Assembly (NCBI GenBank): GCA_024103215.1
Contig: JAGFIY010000127.1
Coordinates: 1 to 64,000 of the forward strand
Source of the DNA: Melioribacteraceae bacterium
GTDB taxonomy: Bacteria; Bacteroidota; Ignavibacteria; Ignavibacteriales; Melioribacteraceae
DNA length: 64,000 bases
Direction: 5' to 3'
Shown one piece after another: positions 6,224 through 40,711 of this stretch. Both the position numbers and the translations under genes were made by a program. The notes beneath the pieces were generated by a model that saw only the letters and a list, made by a program, of their open reading frames with translations, did not search any database and was not told the DNA's origin. The stretch's first letter is position 1. Every line of letters starts with the position of its first letter.

Positions 6224-7045
6224 GTGCTCAAAAGAAAATTAAAGCAAAAAGAGATCAATTTACTTGAAAAGGTTCGTGATCAGGGAAACATTCCTCAGCA
6301 TATTGCTATAATCATGGACGGTAACGGCCGTTGGGCGAGAAAAAGAAAACTTCCCCGTGTCGCCGGACATCAATATGGAATTGAAACCGTAAGAAATGTA
6401 GTTGAGGCTTGCACTGTTCTTGGAGTGAAATATTTGACATTATACACATTTTCAACAGAGAATTGGAAACGCCCGGTAACAGAAGTTTCTACACTGATGA
6501 GATTGATAGTTAAAAGTCTCCAAAGCGAAACAAATGAACTACATGCGAATAACATTAAGTTAAAATCGATTGGTGAAACTTGTAATCTACCTGAAGATGT
6601 TCAAAAAGAATTATTAGATGCAGAAGAGAAAACCAAGGATAATGCTAAAATGGTATTAAATCTTGCTCTTAGTTACAGTGGGAGAAGGGAAATTACTGAA
6701 GCCGTAAAAAAGATTGCAGAAGATGCAAAAACTGGAAAATTAAAATCTGAAATTAATGAACAACTTATTTCAAATTATTTGTACACGAAGGATATACCCG
6801 ACCCTGATCTTGTAATACGAAGCGGCGGTGAACATCGGGTAAGCAACTTCTTGTTATGGCAGATCGCTTATTCGGAAATTTATGTAACTGACTTACTTTG
6901 GCCTGATTTTGGGACCGAAGCACTTATTGATGCAATTAAGGATTATAAAAATAGAGAAAGAAGATTCGGACTTGTAAGTGAACAAATATCGAAAAACTCC
7001 AAAAAAACTCATAATGTTGGATCACTCCCTAAATCGATTGCTTAA
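6224..7045 (+). CDS. uppS: Isoprenyl transferase (undecaprenyl diphosphate synthase)
   Basis: UppS condenses isopentenyl diphosphates in cis onto farnesyl diphosphate to make the C55 carrier for peptidoglycan and LPS sugars. The 273-residue protein has the family motifs in order: IAIIMDGNGRWARKR with catalytic Asp32, GHQYGIETVRNVVEAC, LTLYTFSTENWKRP, and LVIRSGGEHRVSNFLLWQ followed by AYSEIYVTDLLWPDF. A GTG at 6224 starts it; no better ATG lies nearby. The 3' end overlaps the bamA start by 32 bp, so the two are probably coupled. A TTGACA at 6095-6100 could belong to its promoter, but no well-spaced -10 is evident. Confidence 0.95.
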   Translation: MLKRKLKQKEINLLEKVRDQGNIPQHIAIIMDGNGRWARKRKLPRVAGHQYGIETVRNVVEACTVLGVKYLTLYTFSTENWKRPVTEVSTLMRLIVKSLQSETNELHANNIKLKSIGETCNLPEDVQKELLDAEEKTKDNAKMVLNLALSYSGRREITEAVKKIAEDAKTGKLKSEINEQLISNYLYTKDIPDPDLVIRSGGEHRVSNFLLWQIAYSEIYVTDLLWPDFGTEALIDAIKDYKNRERRFGLVSEQISKNSKKTHNVGSLPKSIA

Positions 7046-9512
7046 ATACAGCCTTCTAATTTTAGCTCTCTTTTCAGCTGATTTATATTCACAGACGGAA
7101 AGGGCTAACTACAGAATTTTGGGTATAAGAGTCGAAGGAAATGTAACTGCCGACGCTAACACGATTATTGCCAACAGCGGACTCAAAGTAAACGATGAGA
7201 TCGAGGTTCCCGGCGATGCCACAATTAACGCAATTAAAAGGTTGTGGGCTCTTAACATATTTACTGCAGACATTGAAATTGTCGTTGAACAGCAAGTGCA
7301 GGACGGTGTGTTCCTTCTTATAAAAGTGCAGGAACATCCTAGGATTGAAGACTTCGCGCTTTCCGGCAACGATGAAATTGATGATGATGATATTGAGGAG
7401 AAAATCCTTTTCCGCCGAGGCCATATACTAAAACCGCAGGATATATATAACTCAATAACCAAAATCAAAAAACTTTACGAAGAGGAAGGATTTCTTAATG
7501 CAGAGATTAAAGCATATAAATATTCCTTCTTCGAAACAGATACTTCTGATAACGAAATAACGGTTATTTGGAGAAACCAGGAAGATCTCTCGCAAGAATA
7601 CGAAACTGTGTATGATTACGATCCCGAAATTCCATCGGACCTTGTAAGAAAAATCAATGACCGTGTTCTTCTACTTTTTGAAATTGAGGAAGGGGAAGAA
7701 GTAAAGGTTAACAATATAAGTTTTATCGGCAACGAACAATTTGACGAAGATGACTTAAAAAGTGAATTTGACGAAACAGTTGAAAGCTCTTGGTGGAAAT
7801 TCTGGCGAAGTGCCGATTTCAACAAAGAAGAATTCGAGAAAGACAAAAATCTTCTTGTAGATTTTTACAGAAAAAACGGCTACCGGGATTTCGAGGTACT
7901 GGGTGATACTTTGTTGTTCAATAATGACAAATCGGAGGTTGATATTCTCGTTTCTGTCTACGAGGGTCCTCAATATAAAATTCGAAATATTAATTGGGAA
8001 GGCAACAGCGTCTTTACAGACAACCAGCTTACCGATAGACTGGGTTTTCTAAAAGGTGATGTTTACAATTTCGAGAAACTTAATCTAAATCTTTACTTTA
8101 ACGAAACTCAATCTGATATTTCTTCTATGTACCAAGATCTCGGTTATCTCACTTCGCGAGTCGAAGCCGGTGAGAAATTGATAGAACCAGACTCGGTCGA
8201 CTTAACTATTAGAATAACAGAAAACAACAGATACAAAATCAACGAAATAAATATTACCGGAAACGATAAGACAAAAGAAAAAGTAATCCGTCGAGAATTA
8301 TATTCAATCCCTGGTGATTATTACAGCAGAGCCGGAATTTTAAGGAGCATTCAGCAGCTTGCCAACCTGCAGTACTTCAACGTTGAAGGATTATATCAAA
8401 ACGGTGTGAACCCTCAACCTACAAGCGACAGCACAGTTGCAATAACTTACAACGTGGAAGAAAAATCAAGCGATTATCTTAATGCATCTGTTGGTTACAG
8501 CGGCGGGTTTGGCTTCAGCGGTTCGATAGGTGTTACTCTTTCCAATTTCTCGCTTGCCGAACCTTTTCAACTTGGCGGAGGACAAATACTAAATTTCAGT
8601 TGGATGTTTGGTGTTGGTAACTATTATAGAACTTTCACTTTCGGATTTACCGAACCTTGGTTTCTCGATACACCGACACTTGTTGGATTTGACGTTTTTG
8701 ATACCCGTCAAAGATATGTTTACGATCTCCGTCAGACCGGCGGTACTGTTAAAGTTGGTCGAAGATTAAAATGGCCCGATAACTATTTCTACATACAAGG
8801 ATTATTCAGATTTCAATATAATGATATCATAGACGGAAGAAATTTTTATGCCGAAGGTCAAACAAGACAATACACACTTGGTGCAACAATCTCAAGAACC
8901 GATATAGATAATCCGATTTTCCCCTCTACGGGTTCAAAATTTTCGTTGAATGGAGAATTATCAGGCGGTCCGCTGCTTCCGGGCGATGTTGATTATTATA
9001 AAATTAATTTCAAAACCGAATGGTATAAAAGATTATTTAATTCGAACCGACTAGCGTTTTATCTCGGAGCGGAAATCGGATATTTGGAAGAACTTAATCA
9101 AGGTACAATTATTCAGCCTTTTGAGTTTTTCTTTATGGGAGGAAACGGTTTGATCATTGCAACATCTCCTTTAAGAGGGTACGAAGATAGAAGCGTTGGC
9201 CCAAGAAACCAGTTCGGAGATATTATCGGTGGACGTGTGATGACAAAATATACCGCCGAGTTGCGAGCTGCTATTACATTGAATCCAATCCCCATTTATT
9301 TCTTGACTTTCCTAGAAGCAGGTAATACTTTTCTAAATCTTCCCAGCACGGATTTGTTCGATCTAAGAAGATCGGCAGGTGTGGGCGCTCGTTTGCTAAT
9401 AAATCCGCTTGGTTTAATAGGATTTGATTTCGGTTATGGTTTTGATAGAAAAATTGTTGACGGTATTGATCCGAAATGGATCTTTCACTTTCAATTTGGT
9501 AAAGGTTTCTAA
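7014..9512 (+). CDS. bamA: Outer membrane protein assembly factor BamA
   Basis: BamA inserts beta-barrel proteins into the outer membrane. From the ATG at 7014 it is 832 residues with a signal peptide (LLKYSLLILALFSADLYSQ). This start is preferred to an upstream GTG at 6978 because it puts the signal sequence at the N-terminus. Periplasmic POTRA repeats follow, with typical RILGIRVEGNVTAD, DFALSGNDEIDDDDIEEKI, NNISFIGNEQFDEDDL, IRNINWEGNSVFTDNQL and INEINITGNDKTKEKVIRREL, so five POTRAs. The Omp85 barrel occupies the last 400 residues or so, with SPLRGYEDR as the conserved L6 RGY motif and a C-terminal Phe. It sits in the classic uppS-bamA-ompH-lpxD order. Confidence 0.96.
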   Translation: MLDHSLNRLLKYSLLILALFSADLYSQTERANYRILGIRVEGNVTADANTIIANSGLKVNDEIEVPGDATINAIKRLWALNIFTADIEIVVEQQVQDGVFLLIKVQEHPRIEDFALSGNDEIDDDDIEEKILFRRGHILKPQDIYNSITKIKKLYEEEGFLNAEIKAYKYSFFETDTSDNEITVIWRNQEDLSQEYETVYDYDPEIPSDLVRKINDRVLLLFEIEEGEEVKVNNISFIGNEQFDEDDLKSEFDETVESSWWKFWRSADFNKEEFEKDKNLLVDFYRKNGYRDFEVLGDTLLFNNDKSEVDILVSVYEGPQYKIRNINWEGNSVFTDNQLTDRLGFLKGDVYNFEKLNLNLYFNETQSDISSMYQDLGYLTSRVEAGEKLIEPDSVDLTIRITENNRYKINEINITGNDKTKEKVIRRELYSIPGDYYSRAGILRSIQQLANLQYFNVEGLYQNGVNPQPTSDSTVAITYNVEEKSSDYLNASVGYSGGFGFSGSIGVTLSNFSLAEPFQLGGGQILNFSWMFGVGNYYRTFTFGFTEPWFLDTPTLVGFDVFDTRQRYVYDLRQTGGTVKVGRRLKWPDNYFYIQGLFRFQYNDIIDGRNFYAEGQTRQYTLGATISRTDIDNPIFPSTGSKFSLNGELSGGPLLPGDVDYYKINFKTEWYKRLFNSNRLAFYLGAEIGYLEELNQGTIIQPFEFFFMGGNGLIIATSPLRGYEDRSVGPRNQFGDIIGGRVMTKYTAELRAAITLNPIPIYFLTFLEAGNTFLNLPSTDLFDLRRSAGVGARLLINPLGLIGFDFGYGFDRKIVDGIDPKWIFHFQFGKGF

Positions 9513-14676: not shown

Positions 14677-15750
14677 ATGCAAATAAAACTATATATAGCA
14701 ATTTTTCTACTATCTCAGTTTTTCTCCGTATTAATTGCGCAGGAAAACACGTTGTTCGAGCATTTTCTGAAGGGGAAAAATGTAACTGATATAAGTTCCG
14801 ACGGTGAATCTATCTGGGTTGCGACAGACGGAAGTGGAATTTATAAATATTCATATACAAACAAAACGTGGAGTAATTATTCAACATCCGAAAACAACCT
14901 TTCTCACAATTTTTTTTACTGCATATCCTCAAGCGATAGATATGTTTGGGCAGGGTCTACAGATGGACTTTTTATTCTTGATAAAAGAAGAAATAGCTGG
15001 ACAAAAAGAAAGTTCGGGCTCGGCGGTCAACTTAGCAACTGGATTAGATCCTTAGCTTATGACAAATATGCAAATGTATTATGGATTGGAAGATTTAAAT
15101 TTTTGTCAGCATTTAACATATCAAGCAGAAGATTTTCCGATTACGATTTAACTACAGACGGAGAAGAAAAATCAAACACAATAACCGCAATTGCTGTTGA
15201 CGGCGATAGTTTGGTTTGGTTTGGAACCGAATCTGGAATACATAAATACAACAAACGTTTTGATATAGAAAATTCTTTGGGGAGACAATTCTATAATAAC
15301 TCGCACAATTATTTTAATAACGATAAAGCAGAAATTTCTGTTTCAGACTTTGCTTTTGAAAACAAAAATGTGTGGATTGGTTTAGATGAATTTTTAACGA
15401 GAGAAAACCCCGAGTACAATATCGGAGGAATTTACAAATTCGACAGACTTAATAAATGGCAACGATTTGATATAACTGATGGTTTAGCCGCAAACGGAAT
15501 TTATTCATTGGAAGTGACTGGAAAATATATTTGGGCATCTTTATACAAATTTGATCTTGAAAAGAAGGAACAATATGGTCAAGGAGTTGCTATTATTGAT
15601 CGAATGACAAATGAAATTCGGATGATAAATGACAGTAGTCTTGATTCCGATGTCCATAAACTATTCTTTGACGGAAAATTTTTATGGTTTGGCACAAGCG
15701 ACGGAGTTTATAATTTAGACCTCACAAATAGTTTTATACCAAATTTTTAA
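14677..15750 (+). CDS. Secreted beta-propeller protein of unknown role
   Basis: This 357-residue exported protein has a signal peptide (LYIAIFLLSQFFSVLIAQ) and at least six repeats of the two-component-regulator propeller kind: short strands with SIWVATDGSGIYKY, YVWAGSTDGLFIL, VLWIGRFK, LVWFGTESGIHKY, NVWIGLDE and FLWFGTSDGVYNL. Such W-x-G-T/x-x-G-(I/L) repeats form the sensor half of large Bacteroidetes hybrid kinases. Here they stand alone, with no kinase, transmembrane or sorting domain. The ligand and role are unknown. It sits inside the LPS cluster, 17 bp before the heptose kinase, so an envelope role is a guess from position. Confidence 0.75.
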   Translation: MQIKLYIAIFLLSQFFSVLIAQENTLFEHFLKGKNVTDISSDGESIWVATDGSGIYKYSYTNKTWSNYSTSENNLSHNFFYCISSSDRYVWAGSTDGLFILDKRRNSWTKRKFGLGGQLSNWIRSLAYDKYANVLWIGRFKFLSAFNISSRRFSDYDLTTDGEEKSNTITAIAVDGDSLVWFGTESGIHKYNKRFDIENSLGRQFYNNSHNYFNNDKAEISVSDFAFENKNVWIGLDEFLTRENPEYNIGGIYKFDRLNKWQRFDITDGLAANGIYSLEVTGKYIWASLYKFDLEKKEQYGQGVAIIDRMTNEIRMINDSSLDSDVHKLFFDGKFLWFGTSDGVYNLDLTNSFIPNF

Positions 15751-17246: not shown

Positions 17247-20200
17247 TTGAGTAAAGAAAAGAAAAAAATAAAACGCACCCTTGCGAGGAAAATTCTTAAT
17301 TCTATAATTGGGATTGTCGGTGTTCTCGTTATCTTGCTGATTCTTTTTATAGGATATATGCAAACATCCTCCTTTAGAAACTGGCTCCGCGAAGAAATTG
17401 TTGAAACCGTCAACTCATCAATTAACGGTAAGCTTTCAATCGGACAGATTAGAGGTACATTATTATCATCAGTATATTTGGACGACTTAAATCTAAGTTT
17501 TGAAAATGATACTGTTATATCTGCAAAAACGATAGGGATAAAAGCCAACCCATTTGAACTACTTTTCAGCCGCGTTTATCTCCGGGAAGTAATTATGTAC
17601 GATGTTAATCTTAAGATAGTTGAAGACAGTTTGGGGGCAACTAACTTTTCAAGATTATTTTCTGCGGACAGTACAAAAGAAGCTACGGAAGAAACAGACG
17701 AAAGTGAACCTTTTGCCTTCACTATCCTTGTCAACAATCTCGAATTCAGGAACTTAGACCTGATCCGGAAGACATATGAATACAGAAACACCAAAAAGAA
17801 TTATCTTCATTTTAATCCTGACGATTTGAGAATAACTGAGCTGAACATAAAAGCAAAACTTGTTGCCAACTTAAAGCAGCAAGAAGCCAGACTTGTAATT
17901 GATGATCTCACCGGAAATCCAAATTTAAGCAGATTCAAGCTCAATGAATTCAATGGTGGTTTCACCCTCACCCGCGATTTTGCTGAGGTGAATTATCTTA
18001 ATTTAAAAACTAATTTTGTCGATCTTTCGGTTAAAGCTAGAATGGACAGCTTAAATTTATTCGGTGATATTGACTTGTTAGGGTTCGAAAATTATCCCAT
18101 TAAGCTTGATTTCAGAGCTGAAAATTATAACTTTGCCGATCTTTCATCTTTTCTTGACGATACTGAGTTTTTAAAAGGTTCGGCTTCATTAAACTTGAAG
18201 GCAGAAGGCTACTTTGGGGATCTTGATATTAAAGAATTAAATCTCGACTATAATAACACTCACTTTGAAATTTTTGGCCATGTAAAAAATCTACATCAAC
18301 CGGATAAATTGTTTCTTGATGTCAATATTGTAAATTCACGAACTGACTACTCCGATGTGTTGGGACTTCTTCCTGAATTGGAATTGCCGCGATTCGACGA
18401 CATTCGTCTCGAGGATATGCATTTCTCATATAAAGGTGAGCCGACAAAATTCAAAACCGTCGGTTTTTCAAAGGTTGGAAAAGGTGAGATTATTTTCGAT
18501 TGTTATTTGGATTTGCAGCAGGATGATTTGGAATATGACATCACTTACGAAACAAAAAAAATTGATCTCTTCCCTGTTATAGGGGAAAAAAGCAGCGTTA
18601 CGGCAAAAGGGTCTTTAAAAGGAAAAGGTACTTCGGTGGAAATATTAGCTACCGATTTTCAAACTACTGTCTCAAATTCATTTATAAACGATTATAAAAT
18701 TGATCACCTTGAACTTTCGGCATCAGCTTTTGATAGACTAATTGATTTCAAAATGGAAGGAACAATAAACAACGCTATCTCCGACATTAAAGGAAATTTT
18801 GATTTTGCTGATTTAAAAAATCCCGGATATAAATTTGACGGAAAGCTAAATCAACTTAACCTGGAGGAATTCATTACTGATTCACTCTATAACACCAATT
18901 TAAATTTTGACTTTGTCGCAAATGGAAAATATTTAGATATTGATAAAATGATCGGAGAATTAAAAGTTGATCTTGATTCTTCATCTATCCGCAGCGAATA
19001 TATATATGGTGATAATTTAAACATCAGTCTGGCTCAAGATAGTGGAATAAGAACTATAACAATCGAATCTGATTTTCTGGATTTTATAATTTTCGGCGAT
19101 TATAAAATTTCGACTGTGATCGATCTTATTATGTACGAAAGTAAAACGATAAGCGAAATTATTTCAAATAAACTCCAAGATTTTACTCTGGCCGACGATT
19201 CATTGAAACTTGAAGAAACAATTCCGGAAATTGCAGAAAGTGAATTTGATCTTAACTTTACATTTAATTTTAAGGATTTTAGTCTATTTCGCACATTACT
19301 CAACAACAAAGAGCTTGATCTTGCCGGAAGCGGAAAAGGAGAAATAAAAAACAGCGCATCATCTTTTGAAATTACGACCGAACTAGATATTGAACATTTT
19401 CTTACCATCTCGGGCGAAGAACTTATCTATGTAAATGACCTTAAAACTGATTTTCATTTTACCCGGGATAATCGTCTCCGGAGTTTTGAAGCCCTGTTTG
19501 GTTCAGTTTCTCTCAGCACAGATAAAATTATTTATGGCAGCGAGTATCACGACATTTTTCTCGATCTCATTTTTAATGAAAGCAAACTTTACTATAATCT
19601 TTCCGCAGCTGTAAATGAAGATCTGAATGCTTCGGGTGAGGGAACAATCTCAATGACATCAAATTCTCAATCTGTTTTTGTAGATGCATTTAAAATTGAT
19701 TATAAAAATGTAATTTGGGAAAACCAAGAACAGCTTGTTATCGATTTTGATGCAAGCAAAATTTCTTTTGATTCATTCAAACTAATGCACCGTGAAGCAG
19801 AAGCGGCTGTCACTGGATTTATAATGGACACCGGACAAATAGACGTGGAAGTTGAGGTAAATAATATGCCTGGTATGCTTCTAACATTTCTTGCTACTGA
19901 TGTTTCAGATTCGGAAATTGGTGGTGATGTAAAACTTACCGCAAAAATTACCGGTACAACCGAAAGCCCGTTAATTGATTTTGATTTGAATATGGAAAAG
20001 ATGAGTTATTCCGGAGTTACTTTTGGAACGCTGATGTTTTCATCAGATTATTCAAATAGATTGATAACAACTAATGCTATCTTCGTAGACTCAACTCATT
20101 CATTCGAGAATCCGCTTCTTAAATTAATCGGAACAATTCCAATAGATCTAAAATTAGGAGACATTGAAAACAGAATTCCCGATGATTCTGAAATTGATAT

Positions 20201-21713
20201 GCAGCTTATCTCTAAAGGATTTGACTTCACCATTTTTGGAAACACGCTCCCCTTCATAACTGAACAAAGAGGAAATATTTTTGCAGATATAGCCATCAGC
20301 GGAGATTTGAGTAATATTATTACTAACGGCACATTTAAGTTGGAAAACGGTAATTTTAAGGTTAGAGACAATAATCTTTATTATAACGCTGAGTTTGAAA
20401 TTGAGGCTGAAGAATCTAATCTTAATTTCAAAAATATAACTATTCAAAATTCTTCGGGTTCGAATTACAGTGGAACGTTGCGAGGAAACGGAAATATTGA
20501 GTACTCAAACGAGGGTTTGGAGCAGATACAAATCATCATTCGGGGAGACCTTGCAGTTTTAAGTCCTAATTCTAAATCAGTCAGTCCTGAATTATTCGGT
20601 GATCTTGTTATAGATATCAATGACAAAGCAGAATTTACTTATGATGATGACAGATTCAATTTAATTGCTGATATTTTACTAAAGGAAGTAGATTTAACAT
20701 TTACTTTAAATCAAACTGGTGTAACGAGAAGCGGTGAAGGATTCGTTTACGAAATAATAGAAGATTCATTAAACATTGACAGAGCAGAAGCAGAAATTGA
20801 AAATCTCATTTCTGAATTCAGACTTGCAGCAGGTGCACCATCGAGAGTTACCGGCTCAATTCCATTTGACTATTCTTTATTGGTAACTATTGAAAATGAA
20901 GCTTCACTTATATTTATTTTAAATAAATCGATCGCCCAAAGACTTGTCGTAAAAGCTAACGGTGATTTACAAGTAAGAAGCAAGTATGGGCTGAGCGATG
21001 CACAAGGAGGTTTTACTCTGTTAGACGGATCACGCTTGGAATTTTTTAAATCCTTCGATGCAACCGGCTCAATTAGATTTGAGAGTAATTTATACGATCC
21101 CTATTTAAACATCAGTGCTAAATACATTGGGGATTATGTAGCGCCCAACAACGAAAATGAATCAGCAAAAAGAGTTGCGGTAAAACTTAGCTTAAACGGA
21201 ACTCTTTCATCGTTGAGCAAAAATTTGGCTCTTGACGAAAATCGTTTAACAGTTTACGTTGGCGAAAAAAATATTCAATCTGAGATTCCGTCAATGCAGT
21301 ATGATGCATCTGATGCGATGTCTTTTATCTTGGTAGGAAGGTTTAAAAACGATTTAACTTCGGGAGACAAAATAAGTGTTGCAGAACAAGCAGGTGCAGC
21401 AGCATCGTTTTTTGGTCCCGTTGTTTCAAGCTTTCTTAACAGTGCAGTCGGCAACATTATAGATGACGTTCAAATAAGTCAGTCCGGAAAATATACAAGA
21501 ATTGGAATTTCCGGCAGGCACAATAATTTCAGATATAAAATAGGCGGAACGACGGAAGCGTTTAATGATATGCGTAAAGCAAACATACTAATTCAATATT
21601 TATTTAACCGAAATATCTCTTTGAGATATGAAAGAAAAAACCCTGTCATCTATTATGAAGGCAATGACTTAAAAATAGATGAGCTCGGTTTAAGGTACAG
21701 GTTTGAATTCTAA
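17247..21713 (+). CDS. tamB: TamB/DUF490-family translocation and assembly protein
   Basis: This very long protein (1488 residues) is anchored by one N-terminal membrane helix (about 15-40, IIGIVGVLVILLILFIGYM). It then consists almost entirely of short beta strands with an AsmA/TamB-like start (GKLSIGQIRGTLLSSVYLDDL). It ends in the DUF490 domain, with FRYKIGGTTEAFNDM and a C-terminal ELGLRYRFEF. TamB-like proteins span the periplasm as a hydrophobic groove; they are linked to outer-membrane protein assembly with TamA/BamA and to phospholipid transport. The start appears to be TTG at 17247. The stop overlaps the rnr start (TAATG). No TamA gene is adjacent, but bamA and a second Omp85-like barrel lie within 8 kb on either side. 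Confidence 0.9.
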   Translation: MSKEKKKIKRTLARKILNSIIGIVGVLVILLILFIGYMQTSSFRNWLREEIVETVNSSINGKLSIGQIRGTLLSSVYLDDLNLSFENDTVISAKTIGIKANPFELLFSRVYLREVIMYDVNLKIVEDSLGATNFSRLFSADSTKEATEETDESEPFAFTILVNNLEFRNLDLIRKTYEYRNTKKNYLHFNPDDLRITELNIKAKLVANLKQQEARLVIDDLTGNPNLSRFKLNEFNGGFTLTRDFAEVNYLNLKTNFVDLSVKARMDSLNLFGDIDLLGFENYPIKLDFRAENYNFADLSSFLDDTEFLKGSASLNLKAEGYFGDLDIKELNLDYNNTHFEIFGHVKNLHQPDKLFLDVNIVNSRTDYSDVLGLLPELELPRFDDIRLEDMHFSYKGEPTKFKTVGFSKVGKGEIIFDCYLDLQQDDLEYDITYETKKIDLFPVIGEKSSVTAKGSLKGKGTSVEILATDFQTTVSNSFINDYKIDHLELSASAFDRLIDFKMEGTINNAISDIKGNFDFADLKNPGYKFDGKLNQLNLEEFITDSLYNTNLNFDFVANGKYLDIDKMIGELKVDLDSSSIRSEYIYGDNLNISLAQDSGIRTITIESDFLDFIIFGDYKISTVIDLIMYESKTISEIISNKLQDFTLADDSLKLEETIPEIAESEFDLNFTFNFKDFSLFRTLLNNKELDLAGSGKGEIKNSASSFEITTELDIEHFLTISGEELIYVNDLKTDFHFTRDNRLRSFEALFGSVSLSTDKIIYGSEYHDIFLDLIFNESKLYYNLSAAVNEDLNASGEGTISMTSNSQSVFVDAFKIDYKNVIWENQEQLVIDFDASKISFDSFKLMHREAEAAVTGFIMDTGQIDVEVEVNNMPGMLLTFLATDVSDSEIGGDVKLTAKITGTTESPLIDFDLNMEKMSYSGVTFGTLMFSSDYSNRLITTNAIFVDSTHSFENPLLKLIGTIPIDLKLGDIENRIPDDSEIDMQLISKGFDFTIFGNTLPFITEQRGNIFADIAISGDLSNIITNGTFKLENGNFKVRDNNLYYNAEFEIEAEESNLNFKNITIQNSSGSNYSGTLRGNGNIEYSNEGLEQIQIIIRGDLAVLSPNSKSVSPELFGDLVIDINDKAEFTYDDDRFNLIADILLKEVDLTFTLNQTGVTRSGEGFVYEIIEDSLNIDRAEAEIENLISEFRLAAGAPSRVTGSIPFDYSLLVTIENEASLIFILNKSIAQRLVVKANGDLQVRSKYGLSDAQGGFTLLDGSRLEFFKSFDATGSIRFESNLYDPYLNISAKYIGDYVAPNNENESAKRVAVKLSLNGTLSSLSKNLALDENRLTVYVGEKNIQSEIPSMQYDASDAMSFILVGRFKNDLTSGDKISVAEQAGAAASFFGPVVSSFLNSAVGNIIDDVQISQSGKYTRIGISGRHNNFRYKIGGTTEAFNDMRKANILIQYLFNRNISLRYERKNPVIYYEGNDLKIDELGLRYRFEF

Positions 21714-23806
21714 TGAAAGAAAAAATTAAATCTTTTTTTAAGAAATATCCCGCAAACAAAATTAAATCGAAAACTCTTGCTAAAAAACTCGGTTATTCCG
21801 AACCACATACTTATGCTCAAATGAAAGCCGTTCTTCACGATCTTTTTGACGAAGGTTATTTGGCAAGACAGGGCAAAAGATATTATCTAAACAAATTCAG
21901 TTCAAAAAATCTTGTCGGCAGAGTTCAGATGATCAAAGACGGCAGTTATGCTTTTGTTGAGTTGGAAGATAATGCTTTCGGAGATGTTTTTATACCGGAG
22001 AAATTTCTTAACACTGCATTAAATGGCGATATTGTTGAGGTTTCCCTTTTTGCAAAGCAGCGTGGTAAAAGCATCGAAGGTGAGATTATAAAAGTTATCG
22101 AAAGGAAAAGAACTGAGTACGTTGGTATCCTCTCAAAGGAAAAAGCTTTTTATTTTGTAGAGGTTGACGATTCAAACATTCATAGAGATTTTTATGTTCC
22201 TTCCGATGATTTAAACAGCGCAAAAAACGGCGACAAGGTAATCATTCATGAAATCGAATGGACAAATCCACAGCTCAATCCCACTGCTAAGGTTAAACAG
22301 GTCTTGGGAAAAGCAGGAAGCTATGATGCAGAAATTGCATCAATCGCTCATGAGAAGGGATTGAGGTTTATTTTCCCCGATGAAGTGATTCTCGAAGCCG
22401 AAAAAATTAAGCTCAATATTCCGCAATCTGAACTAGATTCAAGAATGGATTTAAGAGACGAAAAGATCTTTACGATTGATCCTGAAGATGCCAAGGACTT
22501 TGATGATGCCGTTTCTATTTCGAAACTTGATAACGGTAATTTTCGCGTAGGAATTCACATAGCCGATGTATCGCATTATGTTAATAAGGGCAATGCTATT
22601 TACACGGAAGCTGTTGAAAGAGCTACGAGCATATATTTTGTCGGGAAAGTAATACCAATGCTTCCCGAACATCTCTCAAACAAAATTTGTTCTTTGGTCC
22701 CGAACGAAGACAGGTTGACTTTCAGCGTAATCGCTGAAGTCTCACCGGATGGAAAACTTGTTGATTATAAAATTTCGAAATCGGTTATCAATAGCAAAAG
22801 AAGGTTCAACTATGATGAAGTGCAGGAAATTCTCGATTCAGGTAAAGGGGATTTTTTCGAAAAATTAACTGAGCTAAACAACCTTGCAAAAGTGCTTAGG
22901 AAAAAAAGAATGGATCAAGGGAGTATTAATTTCATAACTCCCGAAGTAAAATTTGAATTGGATGAAAACAATATTCCGGTTAACGTTAAAATAAAAAAAG
23001 TAAAAGACAGTCATCAACTGATTGAAGAATACATGCTTCTGGCAAATCAGATAGTTGCAAAATTTATAAACACCGATACCTCAGAACCTGAGCCTTTCAT
23101 TTACAGGGTTCATGATTTACCGGAACAAGAAAAGCTAGTTGAATTCTCAATCTTTGTTAGATCGCTTGGTTATTCATTTGATCCTGAATCCGGGAAAAGT
23201 TCAAAACAATTGAGCAAATTTTTGGATGAAATAAAAGATTCACCAGAGGAATCATTAATAAACGAAATTGCAATTAGATCTATGGCGAAAGCAATTTATT
23301 CAACTGACAATATTGGACATTACGGTCTAGGTTTCTCACATTACTCGCATTTTACTTCCCCCATTAGAAGACTTCCCGATTTAATAATTCATCAAATTTT
23401 ATTCAGCAAATTGAAGAATAAAAAAAGACCTTATACTTATAAAGAACTGGTTAAACTTTCGGAGCACAGTTCAAGACAGGAACGAGCTGCTGTTGATGCG
23501 GAAAGGTTATCGGTAAAAATTAAACAGATCGAATACTTGCAAAATAAAATCGGCGATGAGTTTGAAGCCGTTATTTCCGGTATCACAAATTTTGGTTTAT
23601 TTGTTGAATTGAAAGAAAGTCTCGCCGAAGGTTTGATTAAAATGAGAGATTTAGAAGACGATTATTATGTGTTCGATGAAAAAAATTATCTTCTACGAGG
23701 AAGAAGAAACGGGAAAAAATACAGATTAGGAGACAGTTTGAACGTCAAACTAATAAGAGTAGACAAAGAGAAAAGAGAGATTGATTTTGCACTTTTGTCT
23801 GATTGA
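21713..23806 (+). CDS. rnr: Ribonuclease R
   Basis: RNase R is a 3'-5' exoribonuclease that degrades structured RNA. The 697-residue protein has an N-terminal winged helix (residues 15-60, KIKSKTLAKKLGYSEPH), cold-shock OB domains (70-210), and the RNB catalytic domain starting near 240. There ITIDPEDAKDFDDAVS-like residues (TIDPEDAKDFDDAVSI) supply the metal-binding aspartates, and HYGLGFSHYSHFTSPIRRLPD follows. A C-terminal S1 domain reads AVISGITNFGLFVELKES. A basic tail is short. It is translationally coupled to tamB, which is unusual company for an RNase. Confidence 0.96.
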   Translation: MKEKIKSFFKKYPANKIKSKTLAKKLGYSEPHTYAQMKAVLHDLFDEGYLARQGKRYYLNKFSSKNLVGRVQMIKDGSYAFVELEDNAFGDVFIPEKFLNTALNGDIVEVSLFAKQRGKSIEGEIIKVIERKRTEYVGILSKEKAFYFVEVDDSNIHRDFYVPSDDLNSAKNGDKVIIHEIEWTNPQLNPTAKVKQVLGKAGSYDAEIASIAHEKGLRFIFPDEVILEAEKIKLNIPQSELDSRMDLRDEKIFTIDPEDAKDFDDAVSISKLDNGNFRVGIHIADVSHYVNKGNAIYTEAVERATSIYFVGKVIPMLPEHLSNKICSLVPNEDRLTFSVIAEVSPDGKLVDYKISKSVINSKRRFNYDEVQEILDSGKGDFFEKLTELNNLAKVLRKKRMDQGSINFITPEVKFELDENNIPVNVKIKKVKDSHQLIEEYMLLANQIVAKFINTDTSEPEPFIYRVHDLPEQEKLVEFSIFVRSLGYSFDPESGKSSKQLSKFLDEIKDSPEESLINEIAIRSMAKAIYSTDNIGHYGLGFSHYSHFTSPIRRLPDLIIHQILFSKLKNKKRPYTYKELVKLSEHSSRQERAAVDAERLSVKIKQIEYLQNKIGDEFEAVISGITNFGLFVELKESLAEGLIKMRDLEDDYYVFDEKNYLLRGRRNGKKYRLGDSLNVKLIRVDKEKREIDFALLSD

Positions 23807-23846: not shown

Positions 23847-26800
23847 TTGATACGAAAATTAGTTTTCTTTTCCTTTTTTATTTTTACCACATCAAGCGTG
23901 GTTGCTCAGTTTGGAAAAAATAAAGTTCAATATAAAGATTTTGAGTGGATGTATATTCAAACCAACCACTTCGATATCTATTTTTCCGAAGAAGGAAGAG
24001 ACATAGCAGAGTTTACTGCAAATGTTGCCGAAGAAGCTCTTGAAAATATAATGAGCGATCTCAATTACGAGATAAACAATCGAATTTCTTTAATAGTTTA
24101 CAATTCACATAACGATTTTACAGAAACCAACACGACCCAGGGTTATCTTTCTCAAGGCATCGGGGGATTTACCGAACCTTTTAAGAACAGAGTAGTTTTT
24201 CCCTTTGAGGGAGATTACCAAAAATTTTGGCATGTTATTTCACATGAACTTGTTCACGCTGTAATGAGAGATATGCTTTACGGCGGAACCGTACAAAATA
24301 TTATCGCGAAAAACATTACTCTGCAACTCCCGCTTTGGTATCACGAAGGTATGGCTGAATTTTTAACAAGCGGCTGGGAAACCAATAGCGATATGTTTAT
24401 TCGCGACGCAATTATCAATACATACCTCCCCGATATACAAGGACTTTATGGTTATTTCGCATATCGAGGCGGACAAGCGTTGTTTTATTATATCTCAAAA
24501 ACATACGGAAGAAAAAAAATTGGGGAACTTCTAAACAAAACAAAAGGATTAGGAAGTTTAGAAGCTGGATTGAAATCATCAATTGGTTTAACGATCGAAG
24601 AGCTTAACAATAGATGGAAAAAATGGATCAAGAAAGAATACTGGCCCGAAATCGCATTAAGACAAGATCCTGATGAATTCGCTAAAAGATTGACCGATAA
24701 CAAAGAATCTGGTGGATTTTATAACACAAGCCCTGCTATTTCTCCACAAGGAGATAAAATTGCTTTTATTTCCGATCGTGATATTTTTCTTGATATCTTT
24801 GTTATGAATGCACTCGACGGCGAGATAGTAACCAAAATAGATGGTTTCGGAAGACAAAATGATCTTGAAGAGTTGAATCTTCTTTTCCCATCGGTATCTT
24901 GGGCACCGGATAACAATAGATTGGCTGTTTCAAAAAAAGGACAAGGTTATGATATTGTTGCAATTGTAGATGTTGCTGAAGATGAGTCCTATGAATTGCC
25001 CTTTGAACTGCAGGGTATCGAAACCACTGCATGGTCTCCAGACGGAAGATATATCGCCTTCAACGCACATAATGCGAGACAGTCTGACATCTATGTTTTT
25101 GATCTTGAAACTGAAGAATTAATAAACTTAACAAATGATATTTTCAGTGATTTTACTCCTGTTTGGTCCCCGGACGGAAGTTTATTAGTGTTTTCCTCCG
25201 ATAGAGATAAGTATATTGGTGAGGACAGATTTAAGTTCGACGGGTATAATATGATTTCTCACGACTACTCTAAAAGAGATATTTATTCAGTCACATTCCC
25301 CGAGGGAAAAATATCAAGGATAACAGATTGGGAATACAGTTCACAGAAATCTGCAGTTATTTCCGAAGACGGGAAGTCAATTTTGTTTGTGAGTGATAAA
25401 AATGGGATCGATAATATCTACAAAAAAAGAATTGAGATTGAACCGGCAGATACTGTTGATTCAATTGTTGATCTACCTGCTGTTCCGATTACGAATTCCC
25501 TAAACGGAATAAATCAGTTGAGTATTTCTGAAGATAGAAAAAAACTTGCTTTCACTTCCCTTTTTAATTCCGGCTACAACATATTCACAATTAATAATCC
25601 ATTTGAAATAGAATTGGAATCGGATACTCTTCAACTTACTCCTTTTATGGAGCGAGTTGCTTCCGGTGAAGAGTTTTCAGATGATACATTCAATTTACCT
25701 GACAGCGTACAGAGTACTGATAACGTCTTGAATCATTTTATTTCTGCTTCTGATTCGCAGGAGTCAGAAACCGACACATCAAATTCACGAAGAAAAATTT
25801 ATACAGGGAAATATGTTGGTGATAAAGATACAACAAGAACAGCCGATTATAGTAATTACATTTTCTCCCCCAACAGAAAAGTTGAATCGGATACAACTGC
25901 ATTAACAAAAAATATTTTTAATCAAAAATTGGATGACGATGGTAATTTTCTGGTTAATGAGTATAAAATAAACTTTACTCCCGATCTGGTTTATGCAAAC
26001 GCCTACGTAAGCACTTATTACGGGTTGTTGGGAACCACCGTGCTCTCATTCAGTGATATGCTTGGCAATCATCAGCTCGTCGGTATGACAGGACTTCAAG
26101 TTGATTTAAAAAATAGCGATTACGGTTTAGCATATTATTATTTACCCAAACGGATAAATTACGGAGTTGAATTATTCCATACTGCAAGATTTGTTTATCT
26201 TGCAGGTTTAAACCGAACTGAACTTTACAGATATAGAAATTTTGGCGCGGCTTTCTCGGCAAGTCTCCCTCTCGATACCTACAATCGATTTGATTTGAGT
26301 TTAAGCGTTATGCGAGTAACCTCTGAAAATTTGGATAACCAATTGGTCCCAATGGATAACGCTACTTTTATTATTCCCCAGCTTTCTTATGTATATGATG
26401 ACGTATTATTCGGTTACACCTCACCTATCCAGGGAAGCCGATATAAATTTACTCTTTTCGGAAATACTGGAATTGGCAGCAGCGAACCAAACAGTTTTTA
26501 TTCGCTTATCTTTGATGTGAGAAAGTATTTCAGATTTTTCTACGATAACTCATTTGTGTTTAGATTATCCGGTGGATATTCAGGCGGAGCTGCACCACAA
26601 AGGTTCTTCCTAGGAGGTGTCGATAATTGGATCAACAGATCCTTCGCTTCAGGAACAATTCCGCTTGAATCTCCGGCAGACTTTGCTTTCCTTACCCCTG
26701 CACTTCCGATGCGAGGCTACAATTATTCGGAAAAAATCGGAACTAAATATTCTTTGTTAAATATGGAATTTAGATTGCCATTAATTCGATATTTGCTGAC

Positions 26801-27062
26801 TGGTCCCCTTCCTCTTCTTTTTCAAAATGTTATTGGAACAGCTTTTCTTGATGCAGGTGCAGCCTGGTATGATAATTCAAAATTGCAATTGTTCGGCAGG
26901 AACGAAAACGGTAACGTAGTAACAAAAGATTTGCTTATGGGAATGGGATTCGGAGCAAGAATTTATTTTCTATTTCTTTGGAGATTTGATTGGGCTTGGA
27001 GTTATGATCTTAATAAATTTTCCAAACCCAAATTCTATATCTCGCTTGGCTACGATTTTTAA
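23847..27062 (+). CDS. Gluzincin metalloprotease / TolB propeller / Omp85-like barrel fusion
   Basis: This 1071-residue exported protein combines three modules. Residues 1-20 are a signal peptide. About 30-270 is a peptidase-MA-like zinc protease with HELVH (His133, Glu134, His137) and the downstream WYHEGMAEF that supplies the third ligand (Glu167 or Glu171). About 285-590 is a TolB/PD40 propeller with repeats such as WSPDGRYIAF and WSPDGSLLVFSSDRD. After an acidic Ser/Asp-rich linker, about 700-1071 reads as a beta-barrel with RFFLGGVDNW and LPMRGYNYSEK, the Omp85 'RGY' loop motif, and a C-terminal Phe. It is probably an outer-membrane protein with a periplasmic protease. The start is TTG at 23847. 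It is not named in any pathway I know; a role in outer-membrane protein quality control is inference. Confidence 0.8.
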   Translation: MIRKLVFFSFFIFTTSSVVAQFGKNKVQYKDFEWMYIQTNHFDIYFSEEGRDIAEFTANVAEEALENIMSDLNYEINNRISLIVYNSHNDFTETNTTQGYLSQGIGGFTEPFKNRVVFPFEGDYQKFWHVISHELVHAVMRDMLYGGTVQNIIAKNITLQLPLWYHEGMAEFLTSGWETNSDMFIRDAIINTYLPDIQGLYGYFAYRGGQALFYYISKTYGRKKIGELLNKTKGLGSLEAGLKSSIGLTIEELNNRWKKWIKKEYWPEIALRQDPDEFAKRLTDNKESGGFYNTSPAISPQGDKIAFISDRDIFLDIFVMNALDGEIVTKIDGFGRQNDLEELNLLFPSVSWAPDNNRLAVSKKGQGYDIVAIVDVAEDESYELPFELQGIETTAWSPDGRYIAFNAHNARQSDIYVFDLETEELINLTNDIFSDFTPVWSPDGSLLVFSSDRDKYIGEDRFKFDGYNMISHDYSKRDIYSVTFPEGKISRITDWEYSSQKSAVISEDGKSILFVSDKNGIDNIYKKRIEIEPADTVDSIVDLPAVPITNSLNGINQLSISEDRKKLAFTSLFNSGYNIFTINNPFEIELESDTLQLTPFMERVASGEEFSDDTFNLPDSVQSTDNVLNHFISASDSQESETDTSNSRRKIYTGKYVGDKDTTRTADYSNYIFSPNRKVESDTTALTKNIFNQKLDDDGNFLVNEYKINFTPDLVYANAYVSTYYGLLGTTVLSFSDMLGNHQLVGMTGLQVDLKNSDYGLAYYYLPKRINYGVELFHTARFVYLAGLNRTELYRYRNFGAAFSASLPLDTYNRFDLSLSVMRVTSENLDNQLVPMDNATFIIPQLSYVYDDVLFGYTSPIQGSRYKFTLFGNTGIGSSEPNSFYSLIFDVRKYFRFFYDNSFVFRLSGGYSGGAAPQRFFLGGVDNWINRSFASGTIPLESPADFAFLTPALPMRGYNYSEKIGTKYSLLNMEFRLPLIRYLLTGPLPLLFQNVIGTAFLDAGAAWYDNSKLQLFGRNENGNVVTKDLLMGMGFGARIYFLFLWRFDWAWSYDLNKFSKPKFYISLGYDF

Positions 27063-27065
27063 TAA

Positions 27066-27338
27066 CTAAGCTTCTTTTCCAGCAGAACTACCAACATCTT
27101 TAGTATAACTTTCACTTTGTTGGGATTCCGCTTTTAAACCTGATTTTGAATTGTTGTTGTTTTTATAGTCAGTCTGATAAAATCCATTTCCTTTAAAAAT
27201 CGGACCAGCACCGGTACCAATAAGTCTCTTTAATTCACCAGCGCATTTCCGACAAATCCTCAGCGGCTCATCAGTCATTTTTTGAAATTCATCGAATTCA
27301 TATCCGCATTTTTGACATTTATACTCGTATGTTGGCAT
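27066..27338 (-). CDS. FmdB-family zinc ribbon protein
   Basis: This 90-residue protein opens with the FmdB/CxxC zinc-ribbon signature: MPTYEYKCQKCGYEFDEFQK, then ICRKCAGELKR. Zinc ligands are Cys8, Cys11, Cys29 and Cys32. FKGNGFYQTDY follows and a Ser/Asn/Lys-rich disordered tail ends it. The family is widespread and of uncertain role, often called a regulatory protein. It ends only 3 bp from the preceding convergent gene and is transcribed divergently from the lipoprotein gene. Confidence 0.88.
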   Translation of the reverse strand: MPTYEYKCQKCGYEFDEFQKMTDEPLRICRKCAGELKRLIGTGAGPIFKGNGFYQTDYKNNNNSKSGLKAESQQSESYTKDVGSSAGKEA

Positions 27339-37504: not shown

Positions 37505-38141
37505 ATTTCAAAGAAAGTGCAAACAATAGTTGTGCAATAAAGTAAGAGTTAAGAATGATGTATTCGCATTTAGGATTATTATTCCGGAATTTTTTATAGG
37601 CAAGAAATGAATCCGATATAACAAAAAGTATTGCTCCGATGCTAATTAGCATGGATGCCTGATCTCTCATAAATAAATATCTATTAATTCCCACCCAAAA
37701 CATAACCGTTAAAACTCCGACATACAAAAGAACCACAAGTCTATATTTCCCGATTGAATTTCCAAGAATAACTAACATTATACTTGAGAAAAGTATGGCT
37801 GAAATCAACAAGTAAAAGTTAAATGCAAATACACCTTGAATAAAAGCAAATGAATAAGCAATGTGTGCAACTAAAAATGCAATCAATCCGTACTTAAACT
37901 TCGATTCTTTCAGCATCAAAAAAACATCCCCAACAAATGAAATTATTAGTGCTGATTTTATATAGAATGAAAATCTGCTTTCGGGATTTGAATCTATGGC
38001 AAAAGCAAGAACAATGATCGAAATAATTGTAATCGGTTTTAGAACCAAGAATAATTTACGCTTCGAATCAATGTTTACCCTTAGATGAGATGAAAAAATA
38101 GATAAAATTAAAATGAGAGCTATAGCGGAAGTAATAATCAT
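37503..38141 (-). CDS. YhhN-family membrane protein (lysoplasmalogenase-like)
   Basis: This 212-residue protein is almost all membrane helices (about seven to eight). It has the YhhN pattern: a LVLKPITIISIIVLAF start, LIISFVGDVFLML, FLVAHIAYSFAFIQGVFAF, and the ending GAILFVISDSFLAYKKF with FIAQLLFA. Family members hydrolyse the vinyl-ether bond of lysoplasmalogens (human TMEM86 group), and bacterial activity has been shown for Legionella. It is the last gene of the phosphatase/sigma operon and overlaps the preceding gene by 4 bp, so it is a possible output gene of that circuit. Confidence 0.82.
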   Translation of the reverse strand: MIITSAIALILILSIFSSHLRVNIDSKRKLFLVLKPITIISIIVLAFAIDSNPESRFSFYIKSALIISFVGDVFLMLKESKFKYGLIAFLVAHIAYSFAFIQGVFAFNFYLLISAILFSSIMLVILGNSIGKYRLVVLLYVGVLTVMFWVGINRYLFMRDQASMLISIGAILFVISDSFLAYKKFRNNNPKCEYIILNSYFIAQLLFALSLK

Positions 38142-40711
38142 TTCACTTTGACCAAAACCAAAGTGATATCATCGTTTTGGGATTCAACTGCACGAAATGT
38201 TTTTAATGAATTCATAATTTCATTTTCAACCTGCATGGCGGACCTGCTGCTCGATTGTTTTAAAATACTTTTAAATCTTCCATCTCCGAAAAATTCCTTT
38301 TCTTTATTCATCGCTTCTGTAATTCCATCAGAATAAAATGCAAACAGCTGACCCGTTTCCAATGGCAGTTCAATCTCTTCAATTGAATTGTCGAAAACAT
38401 CTTCAGTCTTCATTCCAATCCCAATTCCTTTCGGAACATATTCATCGATATGAAAATCTTTTGCAACTAGAAGCGGCGTATGACCAGCCCTACAGTAATT
38501 CATCTTTTTAGTTTCAGTATTAAAAAGAGCAATAGATACAGTTATGAACCAGTTTCGTTCAATTGTAGGTGTAATTTTTTTATTCACTTCCACGAGAACT
38601 TCTTTTGGAGTTCTTCCTTCTGAACAAAATAATTTTATCATAGTTTCCAGTTTGGACATATAGAAAGATGCAGCTAATCCTTTGCCAGACACATCTCCGA
38701 CTACTACGAACACTCTTTTTTCATCAAGCTTTATCAAATCATAATAATCTCCTCCAACTTGCATTGCCGGATGCATACTACCGCAAATATCTAAACCTTT
38801 TATATTTGGAATACTACTCGGAAGCAGGCTAATTTGAATTCGCTTAGCATTTTCCAAATCACGATCAATTTTAAGTTTTTCCGCTTCTGCCTCATACAAC
38901 CTTGCGTTCTCAATAGCGGCGGCTATCTGGTTGCAAACAGCAGTCAGAAGTTCCAAATCCTTTCCTGCAAATTGTGCCCCAGAATGCTTTAACCCAAACA
39001 AAACCGATCCGATGATTTTGTTTTTAATCATCAACGGTATAATTGTGTAAATCCCTTCATCTTTTAATTTTTCAGCACTTTCTGGATATATTTTTTTGAA
39101 ATCATTTTCTTCGATGACCGGGTTAAGTTTTAGTCTTTCTTTTTCTTTCAAAACTTCCCTAATCCTTGTTTCTCTATCCTCGAGTAAAATGGAAGACTTA
39201 TCAATTCCAACTGCTCTTAGAATTACACAAGTTTTATTACCACCGTTGGATTTAAGAAGTATTGCCACTTTCTTCAACTTTAGTGAATTTATGAAAGTAT
39301 CTACAACTGAATCTAATATGTTATCCATTCCAACGATTGTTGAGATGTCACTGCTAAACTTTACCAATACTTTTTGAAACGCAAATTGTTCGGGATAAAA
39401 TCTTGAAGTAATTACTTCTTGAAATCTGTCCTTGGTTGATTGAAAGATCAGTGCAAAACCTATGAAGATTATACCTGCAATAATCCCTTGATATTCAGTT
39501 CCTATGGCGCTGCTTATCGATTGCCCTAATACATAAATTACTACAAAGTATAGTGCTGCTAGTGTGATCGTTGCTGTAGTGTACATTATTGTGTTTTTAA
39601 TTACATCACTTACATCCATTAACGAATATTTGAAGATTGAGTAACCAAACGAGATTGGGAGAAGCACGATTAAAATAATCGGCATGAAATACTCAGGCGA
39701 ATTGAACTGTGTAACCGGCTGAGCAGTAACAATGGCTGTAGTATAATATATTATTGCTGCAACTCCGAGAGCATAGGTTATTAATATCACAAAAATTGCG
39801 TTTCTTTCATGCTGTGTCTTAAGTCTTTGATAACTTATAAACAAACTAATTAGTCCAACGACTATGGCTGCACTTGATAGCCAGGACATTAGATTGAAGT
39901 AAAGCGCAGCTTGAATAAAATTATCTCTCATATAAGCAGAGAAATAAAGCACCAAAACAAGCAGATATATTACACTAGGTCCTATATATAGAAACCTTTG
40001 AGTTACTTTTTTATCAATAAACTTGTTTGGTTTCGGAAACACCCAGAAAAAATGTATTAGCACAAACGGGAAAAAAGAAACTCCCAAAAGTGACATTAAA
40101 TCTATAATTACACTAAGCCAAATCGGGAAAGAATTTTCTATGTATGGATTGTTAAAGCTTCGGATAACAACCATATTAAATAGGATTAACATCACTGCAA
40201 CTCTGAAAAACAATCTCTGTGGAACGCCGTTTGGTTTTGCCATTACAACAACATACCCAACAATAAGCCAAATTAGCCCCAGAAGTGAAAATGCCACCCC
40301 TTGGAAGTTGAGTAGTTTTTTAACTTCAACTTTCGTTTCGAATACTCGCCCGTTTCTCTTGATCTTATAAAGCGCCGAATCCCCTCCTTCAACTCTGTTT
40401 AGAACACGCTGGGCGGTACTTAAATCACCGCTTACATCAACATTGTTGATGGCAAGAAGTTCGTCACCGTCCCGTATTCCGGCTTTCCAAGAAACACCCT
40501 CAAACTTTACAAAGGAAAAAAATGTGCCTACGCTGTCCTTGGATATTTTTTCATTTCTCCACAGACACTCATCGTTCGACATCGGGTTTACTTCAAACAA
40601 GAAATAAAGATTTATCAATGCAATAACAAACAAAATAAGCGAAACCGGTTTAATTAAAACCTTTTTTGCCTTATCGAACTTGTAGGTTATATTTAAGTTA
40701 GATTGGTTCAT
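38138..40711 (-). CDS. PDZ-7TM-GAF-PP2C (SpoIIE/RsbU-type) serine phosphatase
   Basis: This 857-residue membrane phosphatase probably removes phosphate from a STAS antagonist. Domain order: a first helix (about 17-38), then a PDZ-like extracytoplasmic domain (about 55-120, SWKAGIRDGDELLAINNVDV), several helices (about 125-390), a GAF domain (about 430-595), a linker helix, and a SpoIIE phosphatase (about 635-855) with VGGDYYDLIKLD, VVGDVSGKGLAASFYM and SDGITEAMNKE, then QNDDITLVLVKVK. The metal-binding aspartates are present. A PDZ domain between membrane segments could sense envelope proteins, as in DegS/RseP-type systems; that is inference. It overlaps the neighbours on both sides by 4 bp. 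Confidence 0.88.
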   Translation of the reverse strand: MNQSNLNITYKFDKAKKVLIKPVSLILFVIALINLYFLFEVNPMSNDECLWRNEKISKDSVGTFFSFVKFEGVSWKAGIRDGDELLAINNVDVSGDLSTAQRVLNRVEGGDSALYKIKRNGRVFETKVEVKKLLNFQGVAFSLLGLIWLIVGYVVVMAKPNGVPQRLFFRVAVMLILFNMVVIRSFNNPYIENSFPIWLSVIIDLMSLLGVSFFPFVLIHFFWVFPKPNKFIDKKVTQRFLYIGPSVIYLLVLVLYFSAYMRDNFIQAALYFNLMSWLSSAAIVVGLISLFISYQRLKTQHERNAIFVILITYALGVAAIIYYTTAIVTAQPVTQFNSPEYFMPIILIVLLPISFGYSIFKYSLMDVSDVIKNTIMYTTATITLAALYFVVIYVLGQSISSAIGTEYQGIIAGIIFIGFALIFQSTKDRFQEVITSRFYPEQFAFQKVLVKFSSDISTIVGMDNILDSVVDTFINSLKLKKVAILLKSNGGNKTCVILRAVGIDKSSILLEDRETRIREVLKEKERLKLNPVIEENDFKKIYPESAEKLKDEGIYTIIPLMIKNKIIGSVLFGLKHSGAQFAGKDLELLTAVCNQIAAAIENARLYEAEAEKLKIDRDLENAKRIQISLLPSSIPNIKGLDICGSMHPAMQVGGDYYDLIKLDEKRVFVVVGDVSGKGLAASFYMSKLETMIKLFCSEGRTPKEVLVEVNKKITPTIERNWFITVSIALFNTETKKMNYCRAGHTPLLVAKDFHIDEYVPKGIGIGMKTEDVFDNSIEEIELPLETGQLFAFYSDGITEAMNKEKEFFGDGRFKSILKQSSSRSAMQVENEIMNSLKTFRAVESQNDDITLVLVKVK

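Follow-up and report, generated by a model that had tools for sequence, protein, structure and literature searches.

The stretch of DNA analysed here (the window: 64,000 nucleotides, positions 1 to 64,000 of contig JAGFIY010000127.1 from a Melioribacteraceae bacterium) carries an open reading frame (ORF) at 23847-27062 on the plus strand, which begins with a TTG start and encodes a protein of 1071 residues. A preliminary description of the window had placed an HELVH motif, a propeller and an RGY-bearing barrel in this single chain, and the ORF, the Pfam matches, a predicted model and structure matches bear this out. The gene is divided as follows.

23847..27062, plus strand: coding sequence, peptidase, propeller and Omp85 barrel, 1071 residues (ORF, Pfam, predicted model)
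23847..23906, plus strand: residues 1-20, signal-peptide-like N terminus, read from the sequence (VVA before QFG), low confidence
23910..24662, plus strand: residues 22-272, gluzincin-type peptidase domain (Pfam, predicted model, fold matches)
24243..24257, plus strand: residues 133-137, HELVH, predicted zinc-binding motif (54/54 aligned orthologues)
24336..24362, plus strand: residues 164-172, WYHEGMAEF with the presumed third ligand Glu167 (54/54 aligned orthologues; partly ascertained by a scan pattern)
24672..25598, plus strand: residues 276-584, TolB-like beta-propeller (Pfam, NCBIfam, model, structure match)
25677..25913, plus strand: residues 611-689, disordered linker (predicted local distance difference test, pLDDT, below 50 in the model)
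25977..27059, plus strand: residues 711-1071, 16-strand Omp85 barrel (model, structure match, profile comparison)
26712..26720, plus strand: residues 956-958, RGY motif in register with LRGY of BamA (orthologue alignment, profile comparison)

Domain architecture of the protein

An AlphaFold2 model of the whole protein was built with an alignment of 54 orthologues, comprising the window protein and those of 53 of 80 loci, with cut or split loci and some near relatives left out. The model has a mean pLDDT of 84.6 and a predicted template modelling score of 0.83, and consists of the peptidase domain, the propeller, the disordered linker of ~80 residues between propeller and barrel, and 16 long barrel strands at 711-1067. 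The C terminus, on whose folding into a barrel the preliminary description had depended, thus forms one in the prediction. A Foldseek search with the whole model gave BamA, TamA, TolB and S9 peptidase as the top matches. Residues 1-20 are helical in the model, and the start of the chain may resemble a signal peptide, a low-confidence reading of the sequence. The QFGxNKVQY segment directly after the presumed signal peptide (23907-23933) is strongly conserved.

The peptidase domain is matched by the Pfam model Peptidase_MA_2 at residues 61-262 (38.3 bits, cut-off 32.4), with HELVH inside the match, and folds alone with a pLDDT of 86.1. In structural comparisons by VIA-align, its nearest solved fold is the M9 collagenase 8jt1_A (Z 17.2, root-mean-square deviation (r.m.s.d.) 3.6, 226 residues aligned), followed by the M30 lugdulysin (Z 15.9, r.m.s.d. 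4.5, 233 residues) and the M1 aminopeptidases (Z about 13-14). These enzymes have the gluzincin-type fold in common with the domain. However, the kinship to all three is distant, since the best Foldseek match of the domain reaches only E 2.6e-4 and its sequence profile has no match at E<=10 among the PDB chains. In the models of both the whole protein and the domain, one helix contains HELVH and another, further along the chain, contains Glu167, which we take to be the gluzincin layout; HExxH and the downstream glutamate are both present in 54/54 aligned orthologues. By motif and predicted fold the domain is a gluzincin-type zinc peptidase, which would bind zinc and be active.

BepA belongs to family M48 and is not known to have a barrel. 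The preliminary description called the protease BepA-like, which as a statement of kinship does not hold: the M48 model PF01435 is absent from the Pfam matches, in a search whose filters drop most matches above E 0.1, the fold is nearest to the M9, M30 and M1 gluzincins, and the genome encodes three separate strong M48 matches. Nor does M48 appear among the 50 VIA matches listed with the domain as query, which by itself excludes nothing.

The propeller is the only part matched in a PDB search with the window protein itself. Pfam matches repeats of the PD40/TolB type (PD40, E 3.7e-23), and the TolB-like structure 2ojh (Z 26.3, r.m.s.d. 2.8, 251 residues; VIA-align) and TolB itself (1crz, Z 25.7) superimpose on this part. 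Fold and repeat sequence are thus common to TolB and the window protein, whereas the other domains differ and the score against the TolB model TIGR02800 (99.5 bits) is below its equivalog cut-off of 343.15.

The Pfam Omp85 model PF01103 has no match up to E 10 in the window protein, nor in the barrel alone. The assignment of the barrel therefore rests on a structure match to BamA, a profile comparison with BamA, and a paralogue of 937 residues in the same genome that PF01103 matches directly (43.4 bits, cut-off 24). Superposition of the BamA of F. johnsoniae (9n2d_A) on the model by VIA-align aligned 307 residues (Z 23.2, r.m.s.d. 4.2), all of them within 711-1071. In hhalign, the barrel profile matched the barrel of the genome's own BamA with E 5.6e-11 and 97.1% over 289 columns, and the FFxGG, PLRGY, ExR and D/E-AG motifs fell into register; the BamA profile consisted of the window copy and 25 sequences, one of them the window copy again. 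The controls failed, as reversed BamA gave E 0.26 and the peptidase domain against BamA gave E 0.23. In a search of the PDB sequences, the last ~80 residues of the barrel profile matched BamA chains at E about 7e-6 and a POTRA-domain protein at E 3.1e-12. Arg956, Gly957, Glu974, Pro978 and Asp1002 are found in 54/54 aligned orthologues. From profile and model, the barrel appears to belong to the Omp85 superfamily and to be akin to BamA. It resembles BamA and TamA in its 16 strands and its RG[FY] hairpin; however, their POTRA domains are replaced in the window protein by the peptidase and the propeller. Pfam gave no POTRA match in the window protein, and the disordered linker precedes the barrel instead.

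PF01103 marks eight places in the own genome, to which the window protein, missed by this model, would add a ninth: BamA, a TamA/TamL-like protein, a patatin-Omp85 protein, a form with POTRA, two without POTRA matches, the 937-residue paralogue and a peptidase-propeller-barrel protein of 1032 residues. The last (L225:1977-5075, C155) is the third protein of this architecture and has HEFTH, WFAEG and, at the position expected for RGY, GMKSYPF. The 937-residue paralogue (L038:7226-10039, C172) has HELVH and an RGW barrel, and many genomes of the order have shorter forms like it. The patatin-POTRA-Omp85 protein (L222:1890-4589, C119) is PlpD-like.

Conservation and a clade without the predicted zinc site

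Matches at E<=1e-10 were found in 37 of 38 close-relative genomes (own included), and His133, Glu134, His137, Glu167, Arg956 and Gly957 are invariant in the 30/30 close-relative orthologues aligned (the window's own included). A wider scan of contigs gave at least 80 of 389 relatives among the matches listed, whose titles name Ignavibacteria, Kapabacteria, Balneolota, Rhodothermota, KSB1, Calditrichota, Marinimicrobia and Delongbacteria. Homologues thus occur across the phylum and in contigs of KSB1, Calditrichota, Marinimicrobia and Delongbacteria. The same six residues are kept in all 54 aligned orthologues; Glu167 and Glu171 are partly ascertained, as one of the two scan patterns contains W[FY]xEG..AE, whereas HExxH is in neither pattern. 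With paralogues counted, 134 of the 198 genomes searched in the phylum contain a match at E<=1e-50, which places the architecture far beyond chance. When nine of the match-less genomes were searched again at E<=1e-8, two remained without a match and seven gave short matches, nearly all in the propeller.

The mean pairwise identity across 103 orthologue rows is highest in the peptidase (0.55), followed by the barrel (0.48) and the propeller (0.44). Peptidase and barrel are equally conserved among the 14 short paralogues (0.65 and 0.64).

The conservation of HExxH and RGY proposed in the preliminary description holds for the orthologues, in which HExxH and RG are kept in 54/54, but not for the whole family; the loss of HELVH in homologues, which that description had named as refuting it, occurs in one clade. 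The family set comprises 159 rows, orthologues and paralogues together; 135 were scored as HExxH, 22 lack it, and two are of other kinds: L071 reads HELVH, and the contig of L098 begins past the motif. The motif-less proteins, fetched as divergent matches of the phylum-wide genome search, come one each from 22 genomes in six other families of the same phylum, presumably of class Bacteroidia. Both histidines are gone in 22/22, a glutamate stands at the position of Glu167 in 4/22, and RG[FY] is kept in 20/22. A FastTree of 158 rows with the motif columns removed, rooted at the midpoint, placed the 22 motif-less rows in one clade with a support of 100. The site was probably lost rather than gained, because the fold of the domain is that of active peptidases.

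Comparisons at equal barrel identity showed a contrast between the two groups. In the barrel identity bins of 0.25, 0.30, 0.35 and 0.40, the peptidase identity is 0.45, 0.46, 0.48 and 0.51 in the motif-bearing orthologues but 0.26, 0.31, 0.36 and 0.43 in the motif-less clade, the pairs not being independent. Together with the domain identities and the clade itself, this suggests that selection acts on the enzyme in proteins that have the motif and that the protein is also of use without it. A gene for a metallo-beta-lactamase-fold hydrolase lies within two genes in 9 of 11 motif-less loci (L139-L142 and L144-L148), whose neighbours were partly scanned.

Genomic setting

The gene is the last of a plus-strand run that starts at bamA and continues with two ompH genes, lpxD, lpxC-fabZ, lpxA, a lipoate ligase-like gene, a gene for a PorZ-like propeller, hldE in two parts, a tamB-like gene and rnr. 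From position 9534 onward, the gaps within the run are between -14 and 58 bases. Three genes of the run bear on the interpretation.

6978..9512, plus strand: bamA, start of the same-strand run (TIGR03303, 432.8 bits, cut-off 297.15)
17247..21713, plus strand: tamB-like gene (weak TamB match, 48 bits, cut-off 825)
21713..23806, plus strand: rnr (RNase R-type), directly upstream (Pfam; upstream in 41/70 relatives' loci)

Downstream, an FmdB-type ORF of 90 residues (27066-27338) faces the gene. The PorZ-like protein (14677-15750) is a Reg_prop-type propeller within the lipid A and outer-membrane run; its PorZ match is below the cut-off and NCBIfam gave none. Farther away, SpoIIE phosphatase, GAF and PDZ matches are combined in one protein (38138-40711).

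An rnr homologue lies directly upstream in 41 of the 70 loci with more than 2.3 kb of upstream sequence, and a tamB-like gene followed by rnr in 30 of the 54 loci with more than 7.5 kb; the tamB-like genes were counted by BLAST, by which too-divergent TamB homologues may be missed. Loci L108, L120 and L126, whose titles name Balneolaceae or Fodinibius, have the same order. The cluster with tamB and bamA for the biogenesis of outer-membrane proteins, in which the preliminary description had placed the gene, stands as regards bamA, which is above its cut-off on the same-strand run. However, the 'tamB' match is weak, and the linkage to tamB and rnr is found in only part of the relatives, making the association with BAM and TAM lineage-bound evidence.

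Proposed function and its alternatives

The name WD40-Omp85 was given to a cluster of Omp85 proteins by Heinz and Lithgow (2014), who compared it with a fusion of BamA and BamB (PMC4104836). As in the window protein, a TolB-like propeller is N-terminal to an Omp85 barrel with no POTRA domain, which is the trait of this subfamily (PMC4104836). However, section 10 of that article gives the subfamily the propeller only, and the window protein adds a peptidase; the main text nowhere uses the term 'peptidase' (PMC4104836). The window family and the published cluster are likely the same proteins. The preliminary description, which knew of no named pathway, is thus right as to function, but propeller-Omp85 fusions already had a name. 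Among the open-access PMC papers listed in the searches, no title or abstract opening describes a peptidase-propeller-Omp85 protein. PF00149 is presumably a phosphoesterase domain. This model defines a separate 'Metallo' group, called metalloprotease in PMC4104836.

The favoured reading, to which we give a probability of about 0.45, is that the protein is an outer-membrane-anchored periplasmic zinc protease for the quality control of envelope proteins. The Omp85 barrel at the C terminus, RGY hairpin included, would anchor the chain in the outer membrane, and the flexible linker would hold the peptidase and propeller in the periplasm, in the place taken by POTRA domains in other Omp85 proteins. 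Substrates or partners would bind to the propeller, and envelope proteins would be cleaved by the peptidase; its targets would most likely be outer-membrane proteins that have stalled, misfolded or not yet matured in the vicinity of BAM or TAM. The motif-less clade would use this scaffold for binding alone, its members being pseudoprotease adaptors. This reading is favoured because of the predicted folds, the presence of HExxH and Glu167 in 54/54 orthologues, the peptidase being the most conserved domain, the kinship of the barrel to BamA, and the run with bamA, the lpx genes, the tamB-like gene and rnr. The placement of the modules follows the analogy with PlpD, a patatin-Omp85 protein in which an enzyme domain N-terminal to the barrel is anchored by it in the periplasm (PMC11116518). 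BepA offers a second likeness, being a zinc protease with HExxH that works on intermediates of LptD at the outer membrane (PMC8423444); it differs as a member of M48, whose model is not among the matches of the window protein.

Several points weigh against a periplasmic protease. Its activity, metal and localisation are predictions from sequence, models and analogy. PlpD is a patatin-type lipase rather than a protease, has no propeller, and differs further in the POTRA domain that separates its enzyme from its barrel, which the window protein lacks. The three strong M48 matches elsewhere in the genome could cover quality control without this protein, and the motif-less clade has kept the protein without the protease site. 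From the barrel identity bin of 0.45, where motif-less pairs are few, the contrast between the groups is small or gone (0.51 in the motif-less pairs vs. 0.56, then 0.63 vs. 0.59, with seven motif-less pairs each). Finally, no BAM, TAM or lipid A gene was found among ten neighbours scanned in other lineages, which included one peptidoglycan-type peptidase and one TonB-receptor-like protein.

A possible but doubtful alternative is that the protein is an assembly factor for outer-membrane proteins in the first place, whose barrel inserts proteins as BamA and TamA do, whose propeller and peptidase fold bind clients in place of POTRA domains, and in which catalysis was added and then given up by one clade. 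The retention of RG[FY] in 20/22 motif-less proteins and the BamA-like barrel, seen in both structure and profile, are consistent with such a factor, and protein assembly is the conservative guess of Heinz and Lithgow for uncharacterised Omp85 subfamilies (PMC4104836, section 10). However, the peptidase is the most conserved domain of the motif-bearing orthologues, suggesting that catalysis is more than decoration there; the window protein has no POTRA domain, and the genome already has BamA and a TamA/TamL-like protein. A combination of both functions seems rather unlikely: an assembly protease of the outer membrane, in which clients docked on the propeller and at the seam of the barrel would be either folded or cut, and which one clade would have turned into a pure chaperone through loss of the zinc site. 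If true, this would be a natural switch from protease to foldase inside one protein family.

Improbable as well is a service to type IX secretion, such as the cutting or handling of cargo at the outer membrane. SprA of this system is found in 154 of the same 198 genomes, and 133 have both SprA and a family member, one has a member only, 21 have SprA only and 43 have neither; moreover, porU lies within the fetched stretch of 4/11 motif-less loci. However, the 21 SprA-only genomes lack a match at E<=1e-50, the pattern follows a few whole families and may reflect ancestry, and most loci have no adjoining type IX gene as far as scanned. The chances are equally low that the protein works in the outer membrane together with the TamB-like protein encoded nearby, moving lipids or proteins across the periplasm: the directly upstream tamB-like and rnr genes in 30/54 loci would fit, but 20 of the 54 loci lack the rnr linkage, the TamB match is weak, and a TamA/TamL-like protein with POTRA domains is encoded elsewhere (134.4 bits to TamL, below the cut-off). 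No more probable is a barrel that displays the peptidase on the cell surface or exports it there, as first proposed for PlpD, so that it could digest material outside the cell or shave the surface: the fold kin include secreted collagenases and lugdulysin, and in the model the 80-residue linker could allow passage, but a shared fold shows no function and the enzyme domain of PlpD, when tested, was found in the periplasm (PMC11116518).

Fusions of peptidase, propeller and barrel are widespread; what would be new is the peptidase domain in a named propeller-Omp85 architecture, together with the motif-less sister clade. WD40-like Omp85 proteins are counted among those 'not well characterized' (PMC11116518). 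The conserved domain, predicted to be a zinc peptidase, and the sister clade without its motif yield a concrete hypothesis for these proteins and, with versions of one outer-membrane machine that look active and others that look inactive, a ready-made natural control.

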